Shown piece after piece: positions 20,666-51,650 of a DNA stretch of 64,000 bases. A model generated the notes under the pieces. The model was not told the DNA's origin. It was given only the letters and a program-made list of their open reading frames with translations, and did not search any database. Both the position numbers and the translations under genes were made by a program. The stretch lies in assembly GCA_018241725.1 (NCBI GenBank), contig JAFEDI010000103.1, positions 1 to 64,000 on the forward strand, given 5' to 3'. Each line of letters opens with the position of its first letter. The stretch's first letter is position 1. This stretch comes from Pseudomonadota bacterium. GTDB taxonomy: Bacteria > Pseudomonadota > Gammaproteobacteria > Burkholderiales > Rhodocyclaceae.

Positions 20666-20972
20666 CTCGCGAGAAACCCGGCGAATGTCCTGCCCTGTCC
20701 GCGAATCCCTCGCGAGTACCTCCGGGACAGACTAGCCCTATCCCGCCGATACTCCCGCCCTGTCCGACCGCTCCTCGCGAGGAGATCAAAGCTGCTCGCG
20801 AGGCCCACCGGGATAGGGACCGACTGTCCGGGATATAGTCCCGAGCAGCCCGGAGACAGTCCCGCCCTATCCCCCGCACCCAATCGAGGACTTCCGGTAC
20901 AGGACGGACCCCCTCGGCGGGGCTCGCGAGTATCTCCGGGATGGTCGCGAGTACCCCGCCGGGGGTCGCGAG
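20666..20972. repeat. Cluster of TCGCGAG palindromic words
   Basis: Seven copies of TCGCGAG occur in 310 bp, at 20667, 20710, 20775, 20796, 20924, 20944 and 20966 (approximate first bases). Most extend to the palindrome CTCGCGAG, and one to the 14-bp perfect palindrome CTCCTCGCGAGGAG (20771-20784). Several are followed by a related tail (AGTACCTCCGGGA / AGTATCTCCGGGA). An eighth, CATCGCGAGTAC, lies at about 22550. No coding frame crosses the cluster convincingly. Confidence 0.7.
20885..20954 (+). repeat. 70-bp direct repeat, copy 1
   Basis: Begins CGAGGACTTCCGGTACAGGA and ends in TCGCGAGTAC. It matches 22491-22560 with scattered changes, the first 23 bases being identical. The core C4-CTCGGC-G4 can form a hairpin in both copies. 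The two copies flank the DUF1016/SDR remnant and element copy A. Confidence 0.7.
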
Positions 20973-21123: not shown

Positions 21124-21681
21124 TTACACCTGCGCCATGCCGCCATCGACAAACAGCTCGATGCCGTTGATGAAGCTCGCGGAATCCGATGCCAGGAAGG
21201 CGACGGCCTTGCCGATTTCCTGCGGCTCCCCCAGGCGGCCCAGCGGGACTTGCGCGGCCAGGTAATCGAACAGACCCTGACGGCTCCATCTAGCCTTTGT
21301 GGGCGGCCTTGAAGCGGCCGAGTTCGAGGATGAAGCTTCGAGCTGGCGCAGGATGGCGGTTTCCAGGTCGGCTTCGGTGAGCGCGCTGGCTTGGGCACTA
21401 GCAATTTCGCTGCGCCCGAAGGCCTTACGTTCGATCTGCCGGTGCAGTTCGCGCACGCTCCAACGCTCGGCCAAGCACTGCCGGGCGTAGAAGTGGCGGG
21501 CGGGCTCGGTCTTGAGCGGCAGCAACTGCAGGAAGTGGGTCCAGCTCAATTGTCGCATCAGCGATGCGACAATTTCGGCATCCGGGAAGGCCTGGGCGAA
21601 CCGCACCATGTGGCGCAGGTTCTTGGGCTCGAATCCATAGCCGAATTCATGGGCCAGCCGTTCGCCGAGGCGGTCCATCAA
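21124..21681 (-). pseudogene. Chimeric remnant: DUF1016 N-terminal domain joined to an SDR C-terminal fragment
   Basis: One open frame of 185 codons made of two unrelated parts. The upstream part (about 21300-21681) is a DUF1016/YhcG N-terminal domain ([49 protein letters not shown]). It is homologous to, but clearly diverged from, the intact gene at 22612-23676. The last 50 codons (about 21124-21276) are the end of a short-chain dehydrogenase ([20 protein letters not shown], then [11 protein letters not shown]). The PD-(D/E)xK nuclease domain and the whole SDR nucleotide-binding domain are missing. Almost certainly the product of a deletion joining two genes. Confidence 0.8.
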
Positions 21682-21776
21682 CTGGGCACCATAGCGGGCA
21701 GGCGCATCCCCTTGGACAGATGGCAGACCCGTACCGCTCTCGTCCTGCCATCCCTCTCACTTGAAGCGCCGGGGGT

Positions 21777-22067
21777 TCAGCGCTCTATCTCCGCCCCTGC
21801 GCGCCAACCACCCTCCCGACGCTGAATCAGCACCATCAACTCCCTGGCCTCGTCCGCGATCATTCCGCAGGCCCACAAGTAGTTCTCCTGGAGTTCGGCG
21901 TCCATGCGCCGGAAAACCTCCCCGGCGTTGCCGCGGGTCATGGCGAGAAGGGCCTGGAGTTGGGCCTGTCGGGCGCTGAGCTGGTCGGTGAGGGTGAGCG
22001 TATCGGCATCGTAGGCGAGGACGTAGAGGCGGTCTCCGGGCGCGGGGAAGTTCATCGCTGTGCTCAT
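21777..22067 (-). CDS. Hypothetical 96-aa protein (element copy A)
   Basis: A small protein starting MSTAMNFPAPGDRLYVLAYD, with a predicted helical second half (SARQAQLQALLAMTRGNAGE, then MDAELQENYLWACGMIADEA). No signal peptide and no family I can name with confidence. It is preceded by GGAGGG and by an ATGA overlap with the 39-codon ORF. The other copy (23858-24148) differs at only two residues (Y19D, T25A), so the protein appears conserved. The helix-rich, small and duplicated character would suit an antitoxin, adaptor or phage-related regulator, but none of these is shown. Confidence 0.65.
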   Translation of the reverse strand: MSTAMNFPAPGDRLYVLAYDADTLTLTDQLSARQAQLQALLAMTRGNAGEVFRRMDAELQENYLWACGMIADEARELMVLIQRREGGWRAGAEIER

Positions 22068-22183
22068 TGCGGTGCCCTCCCCGTGTCGAGTTTGTCGCGC
22101 GGGGGCGGGCAATGGGATTGGGATCGGATCGAAGCGGGGACGGATGCGGGCGGGCGTGCGTACGTCAGGGCGATGAAAGCCAT
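22064..22183 (-). CDS. 39-codon ORF coupled to the 96-aa gene (element copy A)
   Basis: Reads MAFIALTYARPPASVPASIR and ends in GRAPQ, with the stop overlapping the next start (ATGA). AAGGAG (minus strand, plus positions 22193-22198) lies nine bases upstream. The frame and length are kept exactly in copy B, with 27 of 39 residues identical and no indels, although most base changes alter the amino acid. It could be a leader peptide whose translation controls the downstream gene rather than a functional protein. Confidence 0.5.
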   Translation of the reverse strand: MAFIALTYARPPASVPASIRSQSHCPPPRDKLDTGRAPQ

Positions 22184-22400
22184 GGTGCGAAACTCCTTTG
22201 TCGAAGGGCATTTCCGCTCCCCGTCGCCAAACGGGGGGCGGGCCAAAGCGGGGTTGGCGAACCGGGACAAAGGAACCGGCAGGGCCGAAGCCCTCCCCAC
22301 CCGGCCCGCCATTGATCATGGGCGCACCAAGGGTGCACGGACAAAAAAATAGCCGCATTGCGGCTTACGTCCGCCTTTGTCGGTCCGGGTCGCCAAACCC
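22184..22400 (-). promoter_or_regulatory. Leader with mutually exclusive pairing words, copy A
   Basis: Word 1 on the plus strand: CCTTTGTC at 22195-22202 and 22374-22381, complement GACAAAGG at 22266-22273. Word 2: TCGCCAA at 22224-22230 and 22390-22396, complement TTGGCGA at 22254-22260. The middle copy can therefore pair with either outer copy, not both. The outer copy nearest the ORF includes the AAGGAG ribosome binding site. A terminator-like hairpin and small hairpins (GCACC-AAG-GGTGC; AGGGC-CGAA-GCCCT) lie between the middle and upstream words. This is the layout of a transcription or translation attenuator; see copy B for the covariation. Confidence 0.6.
22343..22366 (-). terminator. 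Intrinsic-terminator-like hairpin in leader A
   Basis: On the minus strand AGCCGCA pairs with TGCGGCT across one base and is followed by A and seven T. It lies upstream of the small ORFs rather than after a gene, so it would act as an attenuator. Copy B has an equivalent hairpin with a changed but still perfectly paired stem. Confidence 0.65.
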
Positions 22401-22490
22401 GTTCGCTGTTGTTGCAGCGACAGTGGGGAGTATCTGCCGGGCGTTCGAGGAGCGTCAAGGGACGGTCGCCCCAGTACGGAGGCGACGGCC

Positions 22491-22560
22491 CGAGGACTTC
22501 CGGTACAGGACGGCCCCCTCGGCGGGGGGCGAAAGTACCTCCTGGATCATCGCGAGTACG
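22491..22560 (+). repeat. 70-bp direct repeat, copy 2
   Basis: Matches 20885-20954: identical for CGAGGACTTCCGGTACAGGA and nearby bases, then a CCCCCTCGGCGGGG hairpin core and an ending TCGCGAGTAC. It lies just past the right end of element copy A, before the DUF1016 gene. Confidence 0.7.
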
Positions 22561-22611
22561 CCAGCGCATTCGCCCTATGCCCAAACCCGGCCATTAACCG
22601 CTGCGCATCCA

Positions 22612-23676
22612 TCAGACATCCTCACCGCCACGGTTTTCCAACCGGGCGCGCGACAGGGCAATAGCTTCATGCAGTTTTGCCTGCAACACCTCCCGGGGCG
22701 GCAGCACGGTGAGGTATTCGGCGACGTGGATACCGCTGGCGTCCAGTTCCAGCAGCTCGATCTGCTCGCGCTTCTTGCCGCTGCACAGGATGATGCCCAG
22801 TGGCGGGGCCTCGCCGGGTTCCTGTTCGTACTTGGCCAGCCAGCGCAGGTAGAGCTCCATCTGGCCCTTGTACTCGGCCTTGAAGTCGCCCAGCTTGAGG
22901 TCAATGGCCACCAAGCGCTTGAGGCGGCGGTTGTAGAAGAGCAGGTCGATGTAAAAATCATCCTGGTCGAGCTGGATGCGCTTTTGGCGTGCCACGAAGC
23001 TGAAGCCGGCGCCCAGTTCCAGCAGAAAGCTCTCCAGCTCACGCAGGATGGCGTCTTCCAGATCCTTTTCCAGGTAGCGGTCGTTCAGGCCCAGAAAATC
23101 CAGCACATAGGGGTCTTTCAGCAGTAGCGGGGGCGTCATCTCGCCGCGCTGGCGCAGGCTGGCCAGCTCCTGCGCCAGCAGGGCGTCGGGCTGGCGGGAG
23201 AGAGCGGTGCGCTCGAACAGCTGGGAATCCAGCCGTTCCTGCAGGGTGCGGGTGCTCCAACCTTCCTGCTGGCACATCTGCAGGTAGAAGTCGCGCTTGA
23301 GCGGATCGCCGATGTAGATCAGCGTTCTGAAGTGGGTCCAGCTCAATTGTCTCCGCGTCGCGGAGACAATCTGCGCCTGCGGAAAGACTTCGGCAAAACG
23401 CAGCATGTGGCGCAGGTTCTTCTCGGAGAAGCCGCGGCCGTAATCCCTTTCCAGTTGCCTCGACAGGATGGAGACAATCTGTTCGCCATAGCTGGCGCGG
23501 GCATTCTGGAGCACTTCGCTGCGGATGCGTTGGCCGACGTGCCAGTACAGCGTGGTCAGGGCGCTGTTGACGGCACCAGCCAGTTGCTGACGGCTGTGCT
23601 CGATCAATTGGCGAATCTCGCCCAGCAAGGCATCGGGCTGCGATGGGGGCGGGGTGTGGACAGGGGGCTGGCTCAC
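22612..23676 (-). CDS. DUF1016 / YhcG-family PD-(D/E)xK nuclease-domain protein
   Basis: About 354 aa. The N-terminal DUF1016 helical domain is seen in LLGEIRQLIEHSRQQLAGAV, LYWHVGQRIRSEVL and RGFSEKNLRHMLRFAEVFP. The C-terminal nuclease fold is seen in DDFYIDLLFYNRRLKRLVAI, continuing DLKLGDFKAEYKGQM; D...(x)...DLKLG gives the metal-binding Asp and the E/D-x-K-like residues. Proteins of this family are common in defence and mobile islands and related to restriction-type nucleases. The GTG at 23676 is preferred: GGAGGA lies nine bases upstream and it overlaps the stop of a 32-codon ORF (GTGA). A longer GTG at 23733 is possible. Confidence 0.85.
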   Translation of the reverse strand: MSQPPVHTPPPSQPDALLGEIRQLIEHSRQQLAGAVNSALTTLYWHVGQRIRSEVLQNARASYGEQIVSILSRQLERDYGRGFSEKNLRHMLRFAEVFPQAQIVSATRRQLSWTHFRTLIYIGDPLKRDFYLQMCQQEGWSTRTLQERLDSQLFERTALSRQPDALLAQELASLRQRGEMTPPLLLKDPYVLDFLGLNDRYLEKDLEDAILRELESFLLELGAGFSFVARQKRIQLDQDDFYIDLLFYNRRLKRLVAIDLKLGDFKAEYKGQMELYLRWLAKYEQEPGEAPPLGIILCSGKKREQIELLELDASGIHVAEYLTVLPPREVLQAKLHEAIALSRARLENRGGEDV

Positions 23677-23771
23677 GGCGCCTGTTCCTCCGTGTTGAAG
23701 TGGTGCGCTAACGCGGCGGCCTGGGACTTCCACAGTCGGCCGATTGACTCGAAATCGTCTTGAATTTTCAT
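23673..23771 (-). CDS. Small 32-aa ORF coupled to the DUF1016 gene
   Basis: Reads MKIQDDFESIGRLWKSQAAA and ends NTEEQAP, with its TGA overlapping the GTG start of the nuclease gene (GTGA). No family is recognised; the peptide is helical and charged. The ribosome binding site before its ATG is weak. It may be a real micro-protein, a coupling leader, or chance; the exact four-base overlap favours one of the first two. Confidence 0.4.
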   Translation of the reverse strand: MKIQDDFESIGRLWKSQAAALAHHFNTEEQAP

Positions 23772-23857
23772 AAGTCTAACCGACTGATCGACTACGACAG
23801 ATGGCAGGCCCGTACCGCTCTCGTCCTGCCATCCTTCTCACTTGAAGCGCTGGGGGT

Positions 23858-24148
23858 TCAGCGCTCTATCTCCGCCCCTGCGCGCCAACCACCCTCCCGA
23901 CGCTGAATCAGCACCATCAACTCCCTGGCCTCGTCCGCGATCATTCCGCAGGCCCACAGGTAGTTCTCCTGGAGTTCGGCGTCCATGCGCCGGAAAACCT
24001 CCCCGGCGTTGCCGCGGGTCATGGCGAGAAGGGCCTGGAGTTGGGCCTGCCGGGCGCTGAGCTGGTCGGTGAGGGCGAGCGTATCGGCATCGTCGGCGAG
24101 GACGTAGAGGCGGTCTCCGGGCGCGGGGAAGTTCATCGCTGTGCTCAT
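23858..24148 (-). CDS. Hypothetical 96-aa protein (element copy B)
   Basis: Near-identical twin of the 21777-22067 product, differing at residues 19 (Asp for Tyr) and 25 (Ala for Thr). The same GGAGGG ribosome binding site and ATGA overlap with the upstream 39-codon ORF are present. The coding sequence differs at only a handful of bases, far fewer than the leader just upstream. That pattern suggests either purifying selection on the protein or recent gene conversion. No function assigned. Confidence 0.65.
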   Translation of the reverse strand: MSTAMNFPAPGDRLYVLADDADTLALTDQLSARQAQLQALLAMTRGNAGEVFRRMDAELQENYLWACGMIADEARELMVLIQRREGGWRAGAEIER

Positions 24149-24264
24149 TGCGGTGCCCTCCCCTTGTTGGGTTTGCAGCGCGGAGGTGGGCAATCGGATG
24201 GGGACCGGGTCGAAGCGGGGACGGACGCGTGCGGGCATGCGCACGCCAAGGCACGAAAAGCCAT
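24145..24264 (-). CDS. 39-codon ORF coupled to the 96-aa gene (element copy B)
   Basis: Starts MAFRALACACPHASVPASTR and ends GRAPQ; same length, frame and ATGA overlap as in copy A. The ribosome binding site is CTAGGAG (minus strand), part of word 1 of the leader. Twelve of 39 residues differ from copy A. Rich in Pro, Ser, Ala and Cys with no recognised domain. Confidence 0.5.
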   Translation of the reverse strand: MAFRALACACPHASVPASTRSPSDCPPPRCKPNKGRAPQ

Positions 24265-24471
24265 GGTGCGGAACTCCTAGGATATGGACTCATCCGCCTC
24301 CCGCTGCGAAACGGGGGGCGGGCCAAAGCGGGGTTCGCAGACCGGCATCCTAGGAACCGGCAGGCCGAAGCCTCCCCACCCGGCCCGCCATTGAGGGCGC
24401 ACCAAGGGTGTACGAACGAAAAAGGCCGCGGCGCGGCTTGAATGTCCGCCTAGGAATGGTCGGGCTGCGAA
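24265..24471 (-). promoter_or_regulatory. Leader with mutually exclusive pairing words, copy B
   Basis: Word 1 here is CCTAGGAT at 24276-24283 and CCTAGGA at 24449-24455, with complement ATCCTAGG at 24347-24354. Word 2 is CTGCGAA at 24304-24310 and 24465-24471, with complement TTCGCAG at 24334-24340. All six words sit at the same relative places as in copy A but have different sequences, and complementarity is kept in every case. Such compensatory change in two stems is strong evidence that the pairings matter. Confidence 0.6.
24419..24438 (-). terminator. Intrinsic-terminator-like hairpin in leader B
   Basis: On the minus strand GCCGCG and CGCGGC pair around a single base and are followed by five T after one extra C. 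It is equivalent in position to 22343-22366, with stem bases changed on both sides. Confidence 0.55.
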
Positions 24472-24528
24472 ACCCGTTCGCTGTTGTTGCAGCGACGGCG
24501 GCGAGTATCGGGTGGGTGACGGAGAGCG

Positions 24529-26133
24529 TCAAGCCTGCGCGAAGATCCGCACCCGGTTGCGGCCGGCGCGCTTGGCCTCGTACATGGCTTCATCGGCATG
24601 CTTGAGCAATTCGATGCTGCCGAGGCCGTGCTCGGGATAGAGGGCGATACCGATGCTGGCGGAGATCGTGATGGCATGGCTTTCGATCTCGAAGGGCGCG
24701 GCGAGGGCGGCGCCGAGTTTTTGCGCGACGGCCAGGGCATCGGGCGCGTCCGTGATGTTGCGCAGGAGCAGGATGAACTCGTCGCCGCCCACCCGCGCCA
24801 CGGTGTCGGATTCGCGCAGGCTGTGGCGCAGGCGGAGGGCGACCTGCTGCAGCAGGCAGTCGCCGATGCGGTGCCCCAGGTTGTCGTTGATCGGCTTGAA
24901 GTCGTCCAGATCCATGAACATGACGGCCAGCAGCTGGCCATCGCGCTTTGCGTTGGCCAGAGCCTGCTCCAGGCGGTCGGAAAACAGCGCGCGGTTGGGC
25001 AGGTCGGTCAGCGGATCGTGCTGCGCCAGATGACGGATGCGCCCCTCCGCGGCCCGGCTCTCGTCGAGCGCGCGGCGCAGGCGGTGGTTGATACGGTAGA
25101 TATAGACGGCCAGGGCACTGACGCCGGCCAGGAGCCCCAGCGCGATGTATAGCGTCGTCGGGTCGCGCGGGGCGTCGGGCTCGTAAAGGAAGCCATTCAG
25201 GGAGTAGTTGACGGGCAGCAGCCCGATTTCGGCATAGGTGTCGGCGATGTGGCGCCAGCGCCCGCGGTTCATGTAGCCGACCTCGACCAGATCGGTGCGC
25301 ATCAGCGAGGCCATGCGCTGGGCCTCGAAGAGATAGAAGCCGCGCGGATGCTGCGTGGAGTACCTGGCCAGGATCAGATCGGCGATCTCCTCCTGATGCT
25401 GCATCGCATACTGCCAGCCACGCAGGCTGGCCTCCCGGAAGGCGCGCACGCGCTCCGGATGGGCCTTCAGTTCCTGCTCGGTGGTGAACAGGTTGTCGCC
25501 GTAGAAATCGATGCCGCCGGCCCGGGGCGTATAGACCTGGTAGTCGAACCCGGCGCGGTCCAGGTAGTAAGGCTCGTTGCTGACGTAGGCGGAAATGGCG
25601 TCGACCCGGCCTTCGATCAGGTCTTCCGGCTTGAAGCTGTGGGGCAGCTGGACCAGGCGATCCAGCGTGATGCCTTCCTGTTTGAGGTAAGCGACCAGCT
25701 CGTCCGACTGCGGCTCGATCATGACGCGCTTGCCAACGATGTCATGGATGGCCTGGGTGCCGTTGTCCGCGCCGTTCTGGCGCGCAATCAGCACCAGCGG
25801 GGAATGCTGGAAGATCACCGCCAGCACGACCACCGGCTTGCCCGACCTGCGGGCCAGCAGCAGGCCGCTGGTGCCAACGCCGTACTGGGCCTGATCGGTC
25901 AGCACCGCCTGCAGCGGGTCGACTCCCGGCGTGGCCTCACGCAACTGGACATCCAGGCCGGCCTCCCGGTAATAGCCCTTCTCCAGCGCCGCGTAATAGC
26001 CGGCAAACTGGAAGGCATGGCTCCACTTGAGCTGCAGGGAGACTTTTTCCAGCGCCCAGGCCATGCCGGGAGCCCCCAGCAGGGCAGTGAAAAGCAGGGG
26101 CCACAGGCAACGACACAAAACATGACAAGGCAT
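24529..26133 (-). CDS. Periplasmic NMT1/THI5-like sensor fused to a GGDEF diguanylate cyclase
   Basis: About 534 aa: signal segment (residues 1-29), a substrate-binding-protein domain of the NMT1/THI5 type (about 30-300; VSLQLKWSHAFQFAGYYAAL, then EKGYYREAGLDV), one membrane helix near 330-350, and a GGDEF domain (about 370-530). The active site is VGGDEF, with RESD five residues upstream as inhibitory I-site. It should convert a small-molecule signal bound in the periplasm into c-di-GMP. NMT1-type domains bind pyrimidine/thiamine precursors or other organic ligands; the ligand here is unknown. ATG 26133 is used; a GTG lies two codons upstream. Confidence 0.9.
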   Translation of the reverse strand: MPCHVLCRCLWPLLFTALLGAPGMAWALEKVSLQLKWSHAFQFAGYYAALEKGYYREAGLDVQLREATPGVDPLQAVLTDQAQYGVGTSGLLLARRSGKPVVVLAVIFQHSPLVLIARQNGADNGTQAIHDIVGKRVMIEPQSDELVAYLKQEGITLDRLVQLPHSFKPEDLIEGRVDAISAYVSNEPYYLDRAGFDYQVYTPRAGGIDFYGDNLFTTEQELKAHPERVRAFREASLRGWQYAMQHQEEIADLILARYSTQHPRGFYLFEAQRMASLMRTDLVEVGYMNRGRWRHIADTYAEIGLLPVNYSLNGFLYEPDAPRDPTTLYIALGLLAGVSALAVYIYRINHRLRRALDESRAAEGRIRHLAQHDPLTDLPNRALFSDRLEQALANAKRDGQLLAVMFMDLDDFKPINDNLGHRIGDCLLQQVALRLRHSLRESDTVARVGGDEFILLLRNITDAPDALAVAQKLGAALAAPFEIESHAITISASIGIALYPEHGLGSIELLKHADEAMYEAKRAGRNRVRIFAQA

Positions 26134-51495: not shown

Positions 51496-51556
51496 TGCCA
51501 TGTTGCGACAAGGATTGGTGAAACATCGTGCTCTACCACTGAGCTACGGCCCCCCT
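51496..51556 (-). ncRNA. tRNA 5'-half-like segment upstream of rtcB
   Basis: On the minus strand GGGGCCG begins an acceptor-like strand, followed by the tRNA D-arm TAGCTCAGTGGTAGAGC and then a stem ATGTT/AACAT with a 17-base loop containing TCACCAATCCTTGTCG. No T-arm follows, so this is not a functional tRNA. The TCACCAA(N4)TTGTCG word recurs upstream at about 51760-51776. It lies about 60 bases before the rtcB start. Confidence 0.6.
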
Positions 51557-51562
51557 GATCTG

Positions 51563-51650
51563 GAGCCGGCGGGATTCGAACCCGCGACACCGAGCGTTAC
51601 ATGCTGTAGTTCCACCTGCATTCGCAACAAGGCATCTCAAAAGCGCGCGA
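51563..51650 (-). ncRNA. Y-RNA/tRNA-like element with T-arm (downstream copy)
   Basis: Minus strand: GCGAATGCAGGTGGAACTACA (the repeat at 51605-51625 of the plus strand), a short variable part, then CGCGGGTTCGAATCCCGCCGG, a perfect tRNA T-arm with GTTCGAATC loop and a CGGCTCCA-like 3' end. There is no complete D-arm or anticodon arm. Rsr-associated YrlA-type Y RNAs carry such a tRNA-like module, and the position between rsr and rtcB is where those RNAs are encoded. Confidence 0.65.

Follow-up and report, generated by a model that had tools for sequence, protein, structure and literature searches.

Predicted C4/IsrK-type antisense switches with copy-specific pairing words in a Zoogloea-like genome

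In phages P1 and P7 the antisense RNA C4 is described as pairing around a ribosome binding site (RBS) and blocking translation (PMC12197685). The c4 antisense RNA and the c4-a1b1 element were both listed by Weinberg et al. (2010; PMC2864571). Work on Salmonella Gifsy-1 (Hershko-Shalev et al., 2016; PMC4825925) showed that IsrK, a short terminated RNA, activates the read-through mRNA of its own locus and that a small open reading frame (ORF) is coupled in translation to an antirepressor-like gene. A listing for B. cenocepacia places isrK and C4 in a single transcriptional unit (PMC4603805), and 21 C4-like RNAs, called highly expressed, are listed for Acinetobacter baumannii AB5075 (PMC5320573). 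Here we describe two leader regions, copies A and B, in a 64,000-nucleotide stretch of a Zoogloea-like genome (contig JAFEDI010000103.1, positions 1 to 64,000; hereafter the window). By their sequence, both are C4 antisense RNAs with an isrK- or c4-a1b1-like segment, a known phage-type switch. We put at roughly 0.85 the probability that copies A and B each work as an antisense switch of the C4/IsrK type and lie outside any recognised phage.

In each copy the parts follow one another on the transcript as b1, a1, a hairpin with a U-tract, a centre bearing the loop words a' and b', then b2 and a2, and in both copies a2 covers the RBS region of a 39-codon ORF. The parts are as follows.

Copy A
22429..22458, minus strand: promoter-like site TTGACG-18-GATACT (promoter-pair scan)
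22346..22421, minus strand: isrK / c4-a1b1-like segment, b1 inside a hairpin loop, then a1 (Rfam, fold)
22390-22396, minus strand: b1, TTGGCGA
22374-22381, minus strand: a1, GACAAAGG
22341..22365, minus strand: terminator-like hairpin (22365-22351) and U-tract, between a1 and C4
22231..22316, minus strand: predicted C4 antisense RNA (RF01695, 73 bits)
22266-22273, minus strand: a', CCTTTGTC
22254-22260, minus strand: b', TCGCCAA
22195..22230, minus strand: putative target site, b2 and a2 at the RBS (word match)
22224-22230, minus strand: b2, TTGGCGA
22195-22202, minus strand: a2, GACAAAGG, at the RBS
22064..22183, minus strand: 39-codon ORF, icd-like by position (stop and next start overlap as ATGA)
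21777..22067, minus strand: 96-aa protein of no recognised family

Copy B
24504..24532, minus strand: promoter-like site TTGACG-17-GATACT (promoter-pair scan)
24444..24490, minus strand: a1b1-like segment, b1 inside a hairpin loop (fold; direct repeat of copy A, 78%)
24465-24471, minus strand: b1, TTCGCAG
24449-24455, minus strand: a1, TCCTAGG
24415..24437, minus strand: terminator-like hairpin (24437-24425) and U-tract
24311..24395, minus strand: predicted C4 antisense RNA (RF01695, 67.3 bits)
24347-24354, minus strand: a', CCTAGGAT
24334-24340, minus strand: b', CTGCGAA
24276..24310, minus strand: putative target site, b2 and a2 at the RBS (word match)
24304-24310, minus strand: b2, TTCGCAG
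24276-24283, minus strand: a2, ATCCTAGG, at the RBS
24145..24264, minus strand: 39-codon ORF, icd-like by position (ATGA overlap with the 96-aa ORF)
23858..24148, minus strand: 96-aa protein, 98% identical to that of copy A

Both matches to RF01695 stand well above its cut-off of 45 bits, and both copies show the following features of that type: the fold, a2/b2 at the RBS, a1/b1 upstream, and the small-ORF overlap, in which the stop of the 39-codon ORF and the start of the 96-aa ORF share ATGA. The annotated c4-icd-ant1 region of phage P7 reads b1 TTAGCAG, a1 TGATTGTG, U-tract, C4, b2 TTAGCAG, a2 TGATTGTG and icd, which overlaps ant1 as ATGA; its c4-a1b1 match (55.5 bits) exceeds the cut-off. 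The window copies share with P1/P7 c4-icd-ant, compared on P7, the order b1-a1-U-tract-C4-b2-a2/RBS-small ORF-ATGA-gene, and their copy-specific words recall P1/P7 heteroimmunity (PMC12197685; PMC5320573). The initial annotation, made from the letters alone, knew of no described family with this layout, a statement that must be withdrawn. Much else in it stands: the words lie on the minus strand where it placed them, the centre has alternative partners in the leader (a' and b' match both a1/b1 and a2/b2), one partner sits at the RBS of the 39-codon ORF, and a terminator-like hairpin with a U-tract separates the far partner from the centre in both copies. Complementarity is likewise kept in both sets of words. 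In word 1 of copy B it carries little weight by itself, because the core CCTAGG is palindromic and the flanking A/AT is all that adds to it.

The window copies differ from P1/P7 in that the cargo is a 96-aa protein of no recognised family rather than an antirepressor, in that up to 18 copies occur per genome, and in that the switches are, as far as cargo searches show, not phage-borne. These differences in copy number, cargo and setting lead us to call them a variant, with the switch as such unchanged. With IsrK of Gifsy-1 (RF01394) they would share a short terminated RNA before a read-through mRNA and a small ORF coupled to the next gene, although the mapped Gifsy-1 partners are not described as a2/b2 words at an RBS and the isrK match in the window stays below the Rfam cut-off. 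Phage P4, likened here from description rather than sequence, also places an antisense RNA between two complementary targets in one transcript (seqA - CI RNA - seqC; PMC4825925), but CI works through transcription termination. A. baumannii AB5075 resembles the present case in its many C4 RNAs per genome, expressed and apparently processed; however, other targets are suggested for them, and cognate downstream sites or distinct addresses are not described in the accessible account (PMC5320573). We found no description of per-copy addresses or word switching in the openly accessible literature. The setting, with many copies in one genome each carrying its own matching words, looks new.

How such a switch would work is suggested by P1/P7 and Gifsy-1, from which we infer transcription, processing, repression and relief, whereas the anatomy, homology, conserved pairing and predicted specificity are observed here. 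Starting at the promoter, the transcript would first carry b1, within a hairpin loop, and then a1. In many cases it would end at the hairpin and U-tract, leaving a short IsrK-like RNA, while read-through would yield a precursor from which the C4 RNA is cut; a GGC stands where the C4 5' end would be expected from RNase P processing. The a' loop of C4 would then pair with a2 at the RBS and the b' loop with b2, blocking the 39-codon ORF and, via the ATGA overlap, the 96-aa protein. The short a1b1 RNA would compete for the C4 loops and relieve the block, a step that is the least certain part of the mechanism. The two words jointly would form a copy-specific address, which would largely confine every C4 to the operon it belongs to.

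The same parts could instead make up a purely cis-acting attenuator or ligand riboswitch, in which the centre swaps its far for its near partner within one transcript and no RNA acts in trans. The partners are indeed mutually exclusive and a terminator-like hairpin lies between the far partner and the centre. However, the centre is predicted to fold separately (about -47 kcal/mol), and the phage members of the C4 family act as free, processed RNAs (PMC5320573). The riboswitch form, which the initial annotation had also raised, was rejected, as the centre is a C4 RNA by its family match and no riboswitch family reached the gathering threshold in the window. We consider cis action improbable.

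The evidence for the antisense switch is strongest when many copies are compared. The genome from which the window comes (G000) holds 18 C4 copies, all over the cut-off, one of them (L004) directly past the window end at 64662-64747 (minus strand) of contig C4; none was found in 14 control genomes. At least one copy occurs in 18 of 23 genomes of the genus, three of which hold 15-18. Wider samples, each including the own genome, gave at least 38 of 199 positive genomes in the family, at least 55 of 399 in the order and at least 24 of 369 in the class. Because no more than 20, 10 and 11 candidates, respectively, were scored per genome, these samples give minimum copy numbers (of its 18, the own genome yielded 10 in the order sample and 11 in the class sample). 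One array, L237 (G861, contig C9), packs four C4 units into about 1.4 kb, of which three have an a word in common and no two have the same b word.

Pairing between loops and sites was scored as length less 1.5 per G-U pair in 224 copies, comprising all 78 genus matches, 27 of 42 other-family matches and 119 of 173 further order or class matches. All four pairings (a1, a2, b1, b2) reached a score of at least 6 in 142 of 188 copies and in 26 of 36 further order/class copies, a few of which had the wrong hairpin picked by the loop finder. Overall 168 of 224 copies retain all four, and 56 lack at least one by this scoring. The words therefore change with compensation, as the initial annotation had proposed from two copies, in most of the further copies, which speaks against the uncompensated change that would have undermined it. 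Across the 188 copies, each of the four cognate pairings scored at least 6.5 in 80-87% of cases, vs 3-8% for non-cognate combinations of loops and sites from different genomes. Taken together, the words form a pattern that lies far outside chance expectation.

A promoter-like pair (TTGACG-/GATACT-like, 17-18 bases apart) accompanies 15 of the 18 own-genome copies, where shuffling predicts 0.7, as well as 23 of 32 copies in G006 and G014 (0.9 expected) and 79 of all 224 (8.6 expected). The 3-kb region around the window copies has two such pairs vs 0.4 in shuffles. Terminator-like sites are common there, five vs 2.2 in shuffles, which weakens the terminator evidence. The promoter-like pair, the C4 fold and the RBS pairing point to action at the RNA level.

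The 142 full copies use 80 a words and 35 b words in 115 combinations. The same combination recurs in one of 490 within-genome pairs (L251/L252 of G346, with the same leader and a different next gene) and in 30 of 9521 between-genome pairs. Independent pairing of words would give about 0.9 coincidences, against the one seen, in the ten genomes with at least four full copies, so that address uniqueness alone is not significant and could arise by chance. When a' and b' are taken together, the cognate RBS site has the best predicted duplex energy in 17 of 18 own-genome copies (14 for a alone, 8 for b alone), and elsewhere in 15/15 (G006), 15/17 (G014), 9/10 (G312), 9/10 (G287) and 6/6 (G861); a single word mostly does more poorly, the b word of G861 alone reaching 6/6. 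These energies were computed on six chosen genomes, excluding those with many copies that lack an RBS partner. The median cognate margin is 2.6-4.9 kcal/mol with some margins negative, so some cross-talk may occur.

These results bear on the proposal, made for A. baumannii, that C4 RNAs have been redirected towards other mRNAs of the host (PMC5320573). The loops do vary among copies, and the many highly expressed C4-like RNAs of strain AB5075 fit such a use. However, the variant loops are accompanied nearby by upstream and RBS sites of their own in 142 of 188 copies; other host targets were not searched for. Here we regard re-aiming as no more probable than cis action.

The coding regions of the two window copies are 98% identical, but between their leaders there are differences at 12 of 29 positions in the a sites, 9 of 23 in the b sites and 42 of 216 elsewhere. 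Words were identical in none of three within-genome pairs vs 8 of 13 between-genome pairs at coding identity of at least 95%, and in none of 23 vs 17 of 76 at 75% or above; these counts cover 41 of the 50 copies of three genomes (those with the cargo family and all pairings), and the pairs are not independent and carry no significance test. Eleven own-genome copies could be matched by their flanks, with support of only 124 and 120 bases for L005 and L013. In five of them (L004, L006, L008, L010, L011) the b word has changed jointly at the three places where it occurs while the a word stayed as it was; the other six have kept both words. Comparison of the switched pairs shows differences at 6-12 of 23-31 aligned positions in the b sites, at none in the a sites and at 11-41 of 204-215 in the remaining leader. 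Two pairs with flanks out of register, L002-L090 and L014-L092, were left out, and both words differ in each. L011 also has a same-word relative, L088 in G006, without flank support. In G000 the a word CCTATGTC is common to L004 and L008, whose b words are TTCTCAC and of the TTTCCAC type, respectively. The corresponding copies in G006 and G014 carry GTTCCAA and TTCTCAC; the words have been dealt out anew and are still distinct.

Mutation, recombination with another leader or selection may each underlie the change of words. The pattern suggests, short of proof, selection for orthogonality between copies. We tentatively propose, at a little under even odds, that the genome-wide C4/IsrK array of some bacteria, above all certain Zoogloea, is an evolving orthogonal address code. 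Each operon would bear a two-word label read by its own antisense RNA, with words drawn from limited pools and selection against cross-talk switching the b word jointly at three sites, even at orthologous loci, which would keep the labels in one cell different from each other.

What the switches would control is, in the window, a small protein of no recognised family. The 39-codon ORF of copy B has no Pfam match, nor does the 96-aa protein (99-codon frame, copy B) at E 0.1; neither copy of the latter has an NCBIfam match above cut-off, and both have only weak unnamed matches in PHROGs (E 0.17 for copy A). The regulated gene of the P1/P7 immunity operon, an antirepressor, was thus not recovered by the Pfam (copy B), NCBIfam or PHROG searches. 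AlphaFold predicts three helices (mean confidence, pLDDT, 80.7), and Foldseek of this model against PDB and BFVD gave no match at E <= 0.001. The cargo family (86-101 aa, 15 sequences) lies downstream of 42 of the 50 C4 copies in the three copy-rich genomes, and a pattern scan of the genome collection found 31 loci, all in Zoogloea or metagenome-assembled genomes. Other C4 copies precede other genes: among ten proteins hand-picked from 22 printed, four match Pfam above cut-off (DUF3077, Bro-N, pRha, AntA), five have no match and one has only a weak, below-cut-off family. Pfam describes pRha as a phage regulatory protein, AntA as an antirepressor and DUF3077 as of unknown function. Bro-N is known from phage regulators. 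A likeness of the 96-aa protein to DUF3077, the family matched by the C4-controlled L033 protein, was seen by eye only.

The known place of C4 in phage immunity regions raises the possibility that the copies are decaying prophage remnants without function, as does L001, the one own-genome copy of 18 that has lost most pairings. However, the other 17 retain all four pairings, 15 of 18 have the promoter-like pair, altered words stay matched, and the cargo has no match in phage or plasmid records (one query each) or in viral contigs (pattern scan). Decay is slightly less probable still than either alternative above. The single-stranded DNA recognition hairpins of a mobile element with guide words, also put forward by the initial annotation, were rejected as very improbable: the units are multi-copy and dispersed, but a check by eye of the frames listed behind the 18 own-genome copies showed none resembling a transposase (no dedicated family search was run), and the words are placed at an RBS and in loops that belong to a known antisense RNA.

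Several observations weigh against the antisense switch as we propose it. The far segment of copy A reaches 46.5 bits with isrK (E 3.5e-9; cut-off 50), and 22382-22433 reaches 33.3 bits with c4-a1b1 (RF03163; E 6.3e-7; cut-off 46.7), both below threshold in a permissive search that covered copy A's segment. Among the own-genome loci L002, L004, L006 and L018, only L018 (58.9 bits) passes the isrK cut-off and none passes that of c4-a1b1; at the gathering threshold, isrK stands beside C4 in 4 and c4-a1b1 in 2 of 12 scanned loci. The a1b1 segments fold no better than shuffles (z -1.2 and -0.9) and the C4 segments only moderately better (z -2.2 and -1.8). In some copies, among them L014 of the own genome, the a2/RBS site directly precedes the cargo ORF, with no small ORF. 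The mapped partner of IsrK in Gifsy-1 is the 3' part of orf45 (PMC4825925), so the relief step need not carry over. Finally, 15 of 188 copies pair at a1/b1 and lack the RBS partner a2/b2, which the model does not explain.

Copies with a1/b1 only occur in G520, G966, G874, G463 and others; L247 and L248 of G463 have nearly the same downstream leader and different a words. A T-run of at least five is present in 119 of 142 full copies vs 6 of 15 with a1/b1 only, but this association is confounded with genome, and a link between loss of the RBS partner and loss of the U-tract was set aside and is not claimed.

Other features lie near the copies. The unit and a downstream yhcG/DUF1016 nuclease gene form a tandem duplication (window 21124-23733, minus strand), with yhcG whole at 22612-23733 and partial at 21124-21681, where the frame enters a short-chain-dehydrogenase-like tail. 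YhcG was discarded as a regular partner, as it lies beside only the two window copies among the loci compared, many of which had 0.4-2.5 kb of downstream sequence. A short repeat occurs at 20885-20957 and 22491-22562, its pieces 96% and 82% alike, in a patch rich in CTCGCGAG. A YrlA, Y RNA-like gene is found at 51499-51628 of the window (minus strand, 73.1 bits), and an RT-12 RNA (RF03016) at 2477-2593 of L006 (plus strand, 72 bits), about 0.9 kb downstream of its C4 copy.

As a mechanism the switch belongs to known phage biology. Should the pattern seen among the copies be borne out, this genome would offer about 17 natural antisense regulators with predicted mutual insulation. With such a set it could be tested how matched RNA words change jointly without a non-functional intermediate, and by what means paralogous regulatory RNAs are kept from cross-talk. 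For these genomes the pattern, if it holds, would also count against the idea that multi-copy C4 RNAs were redirected to unrelated mRNAs of the host.

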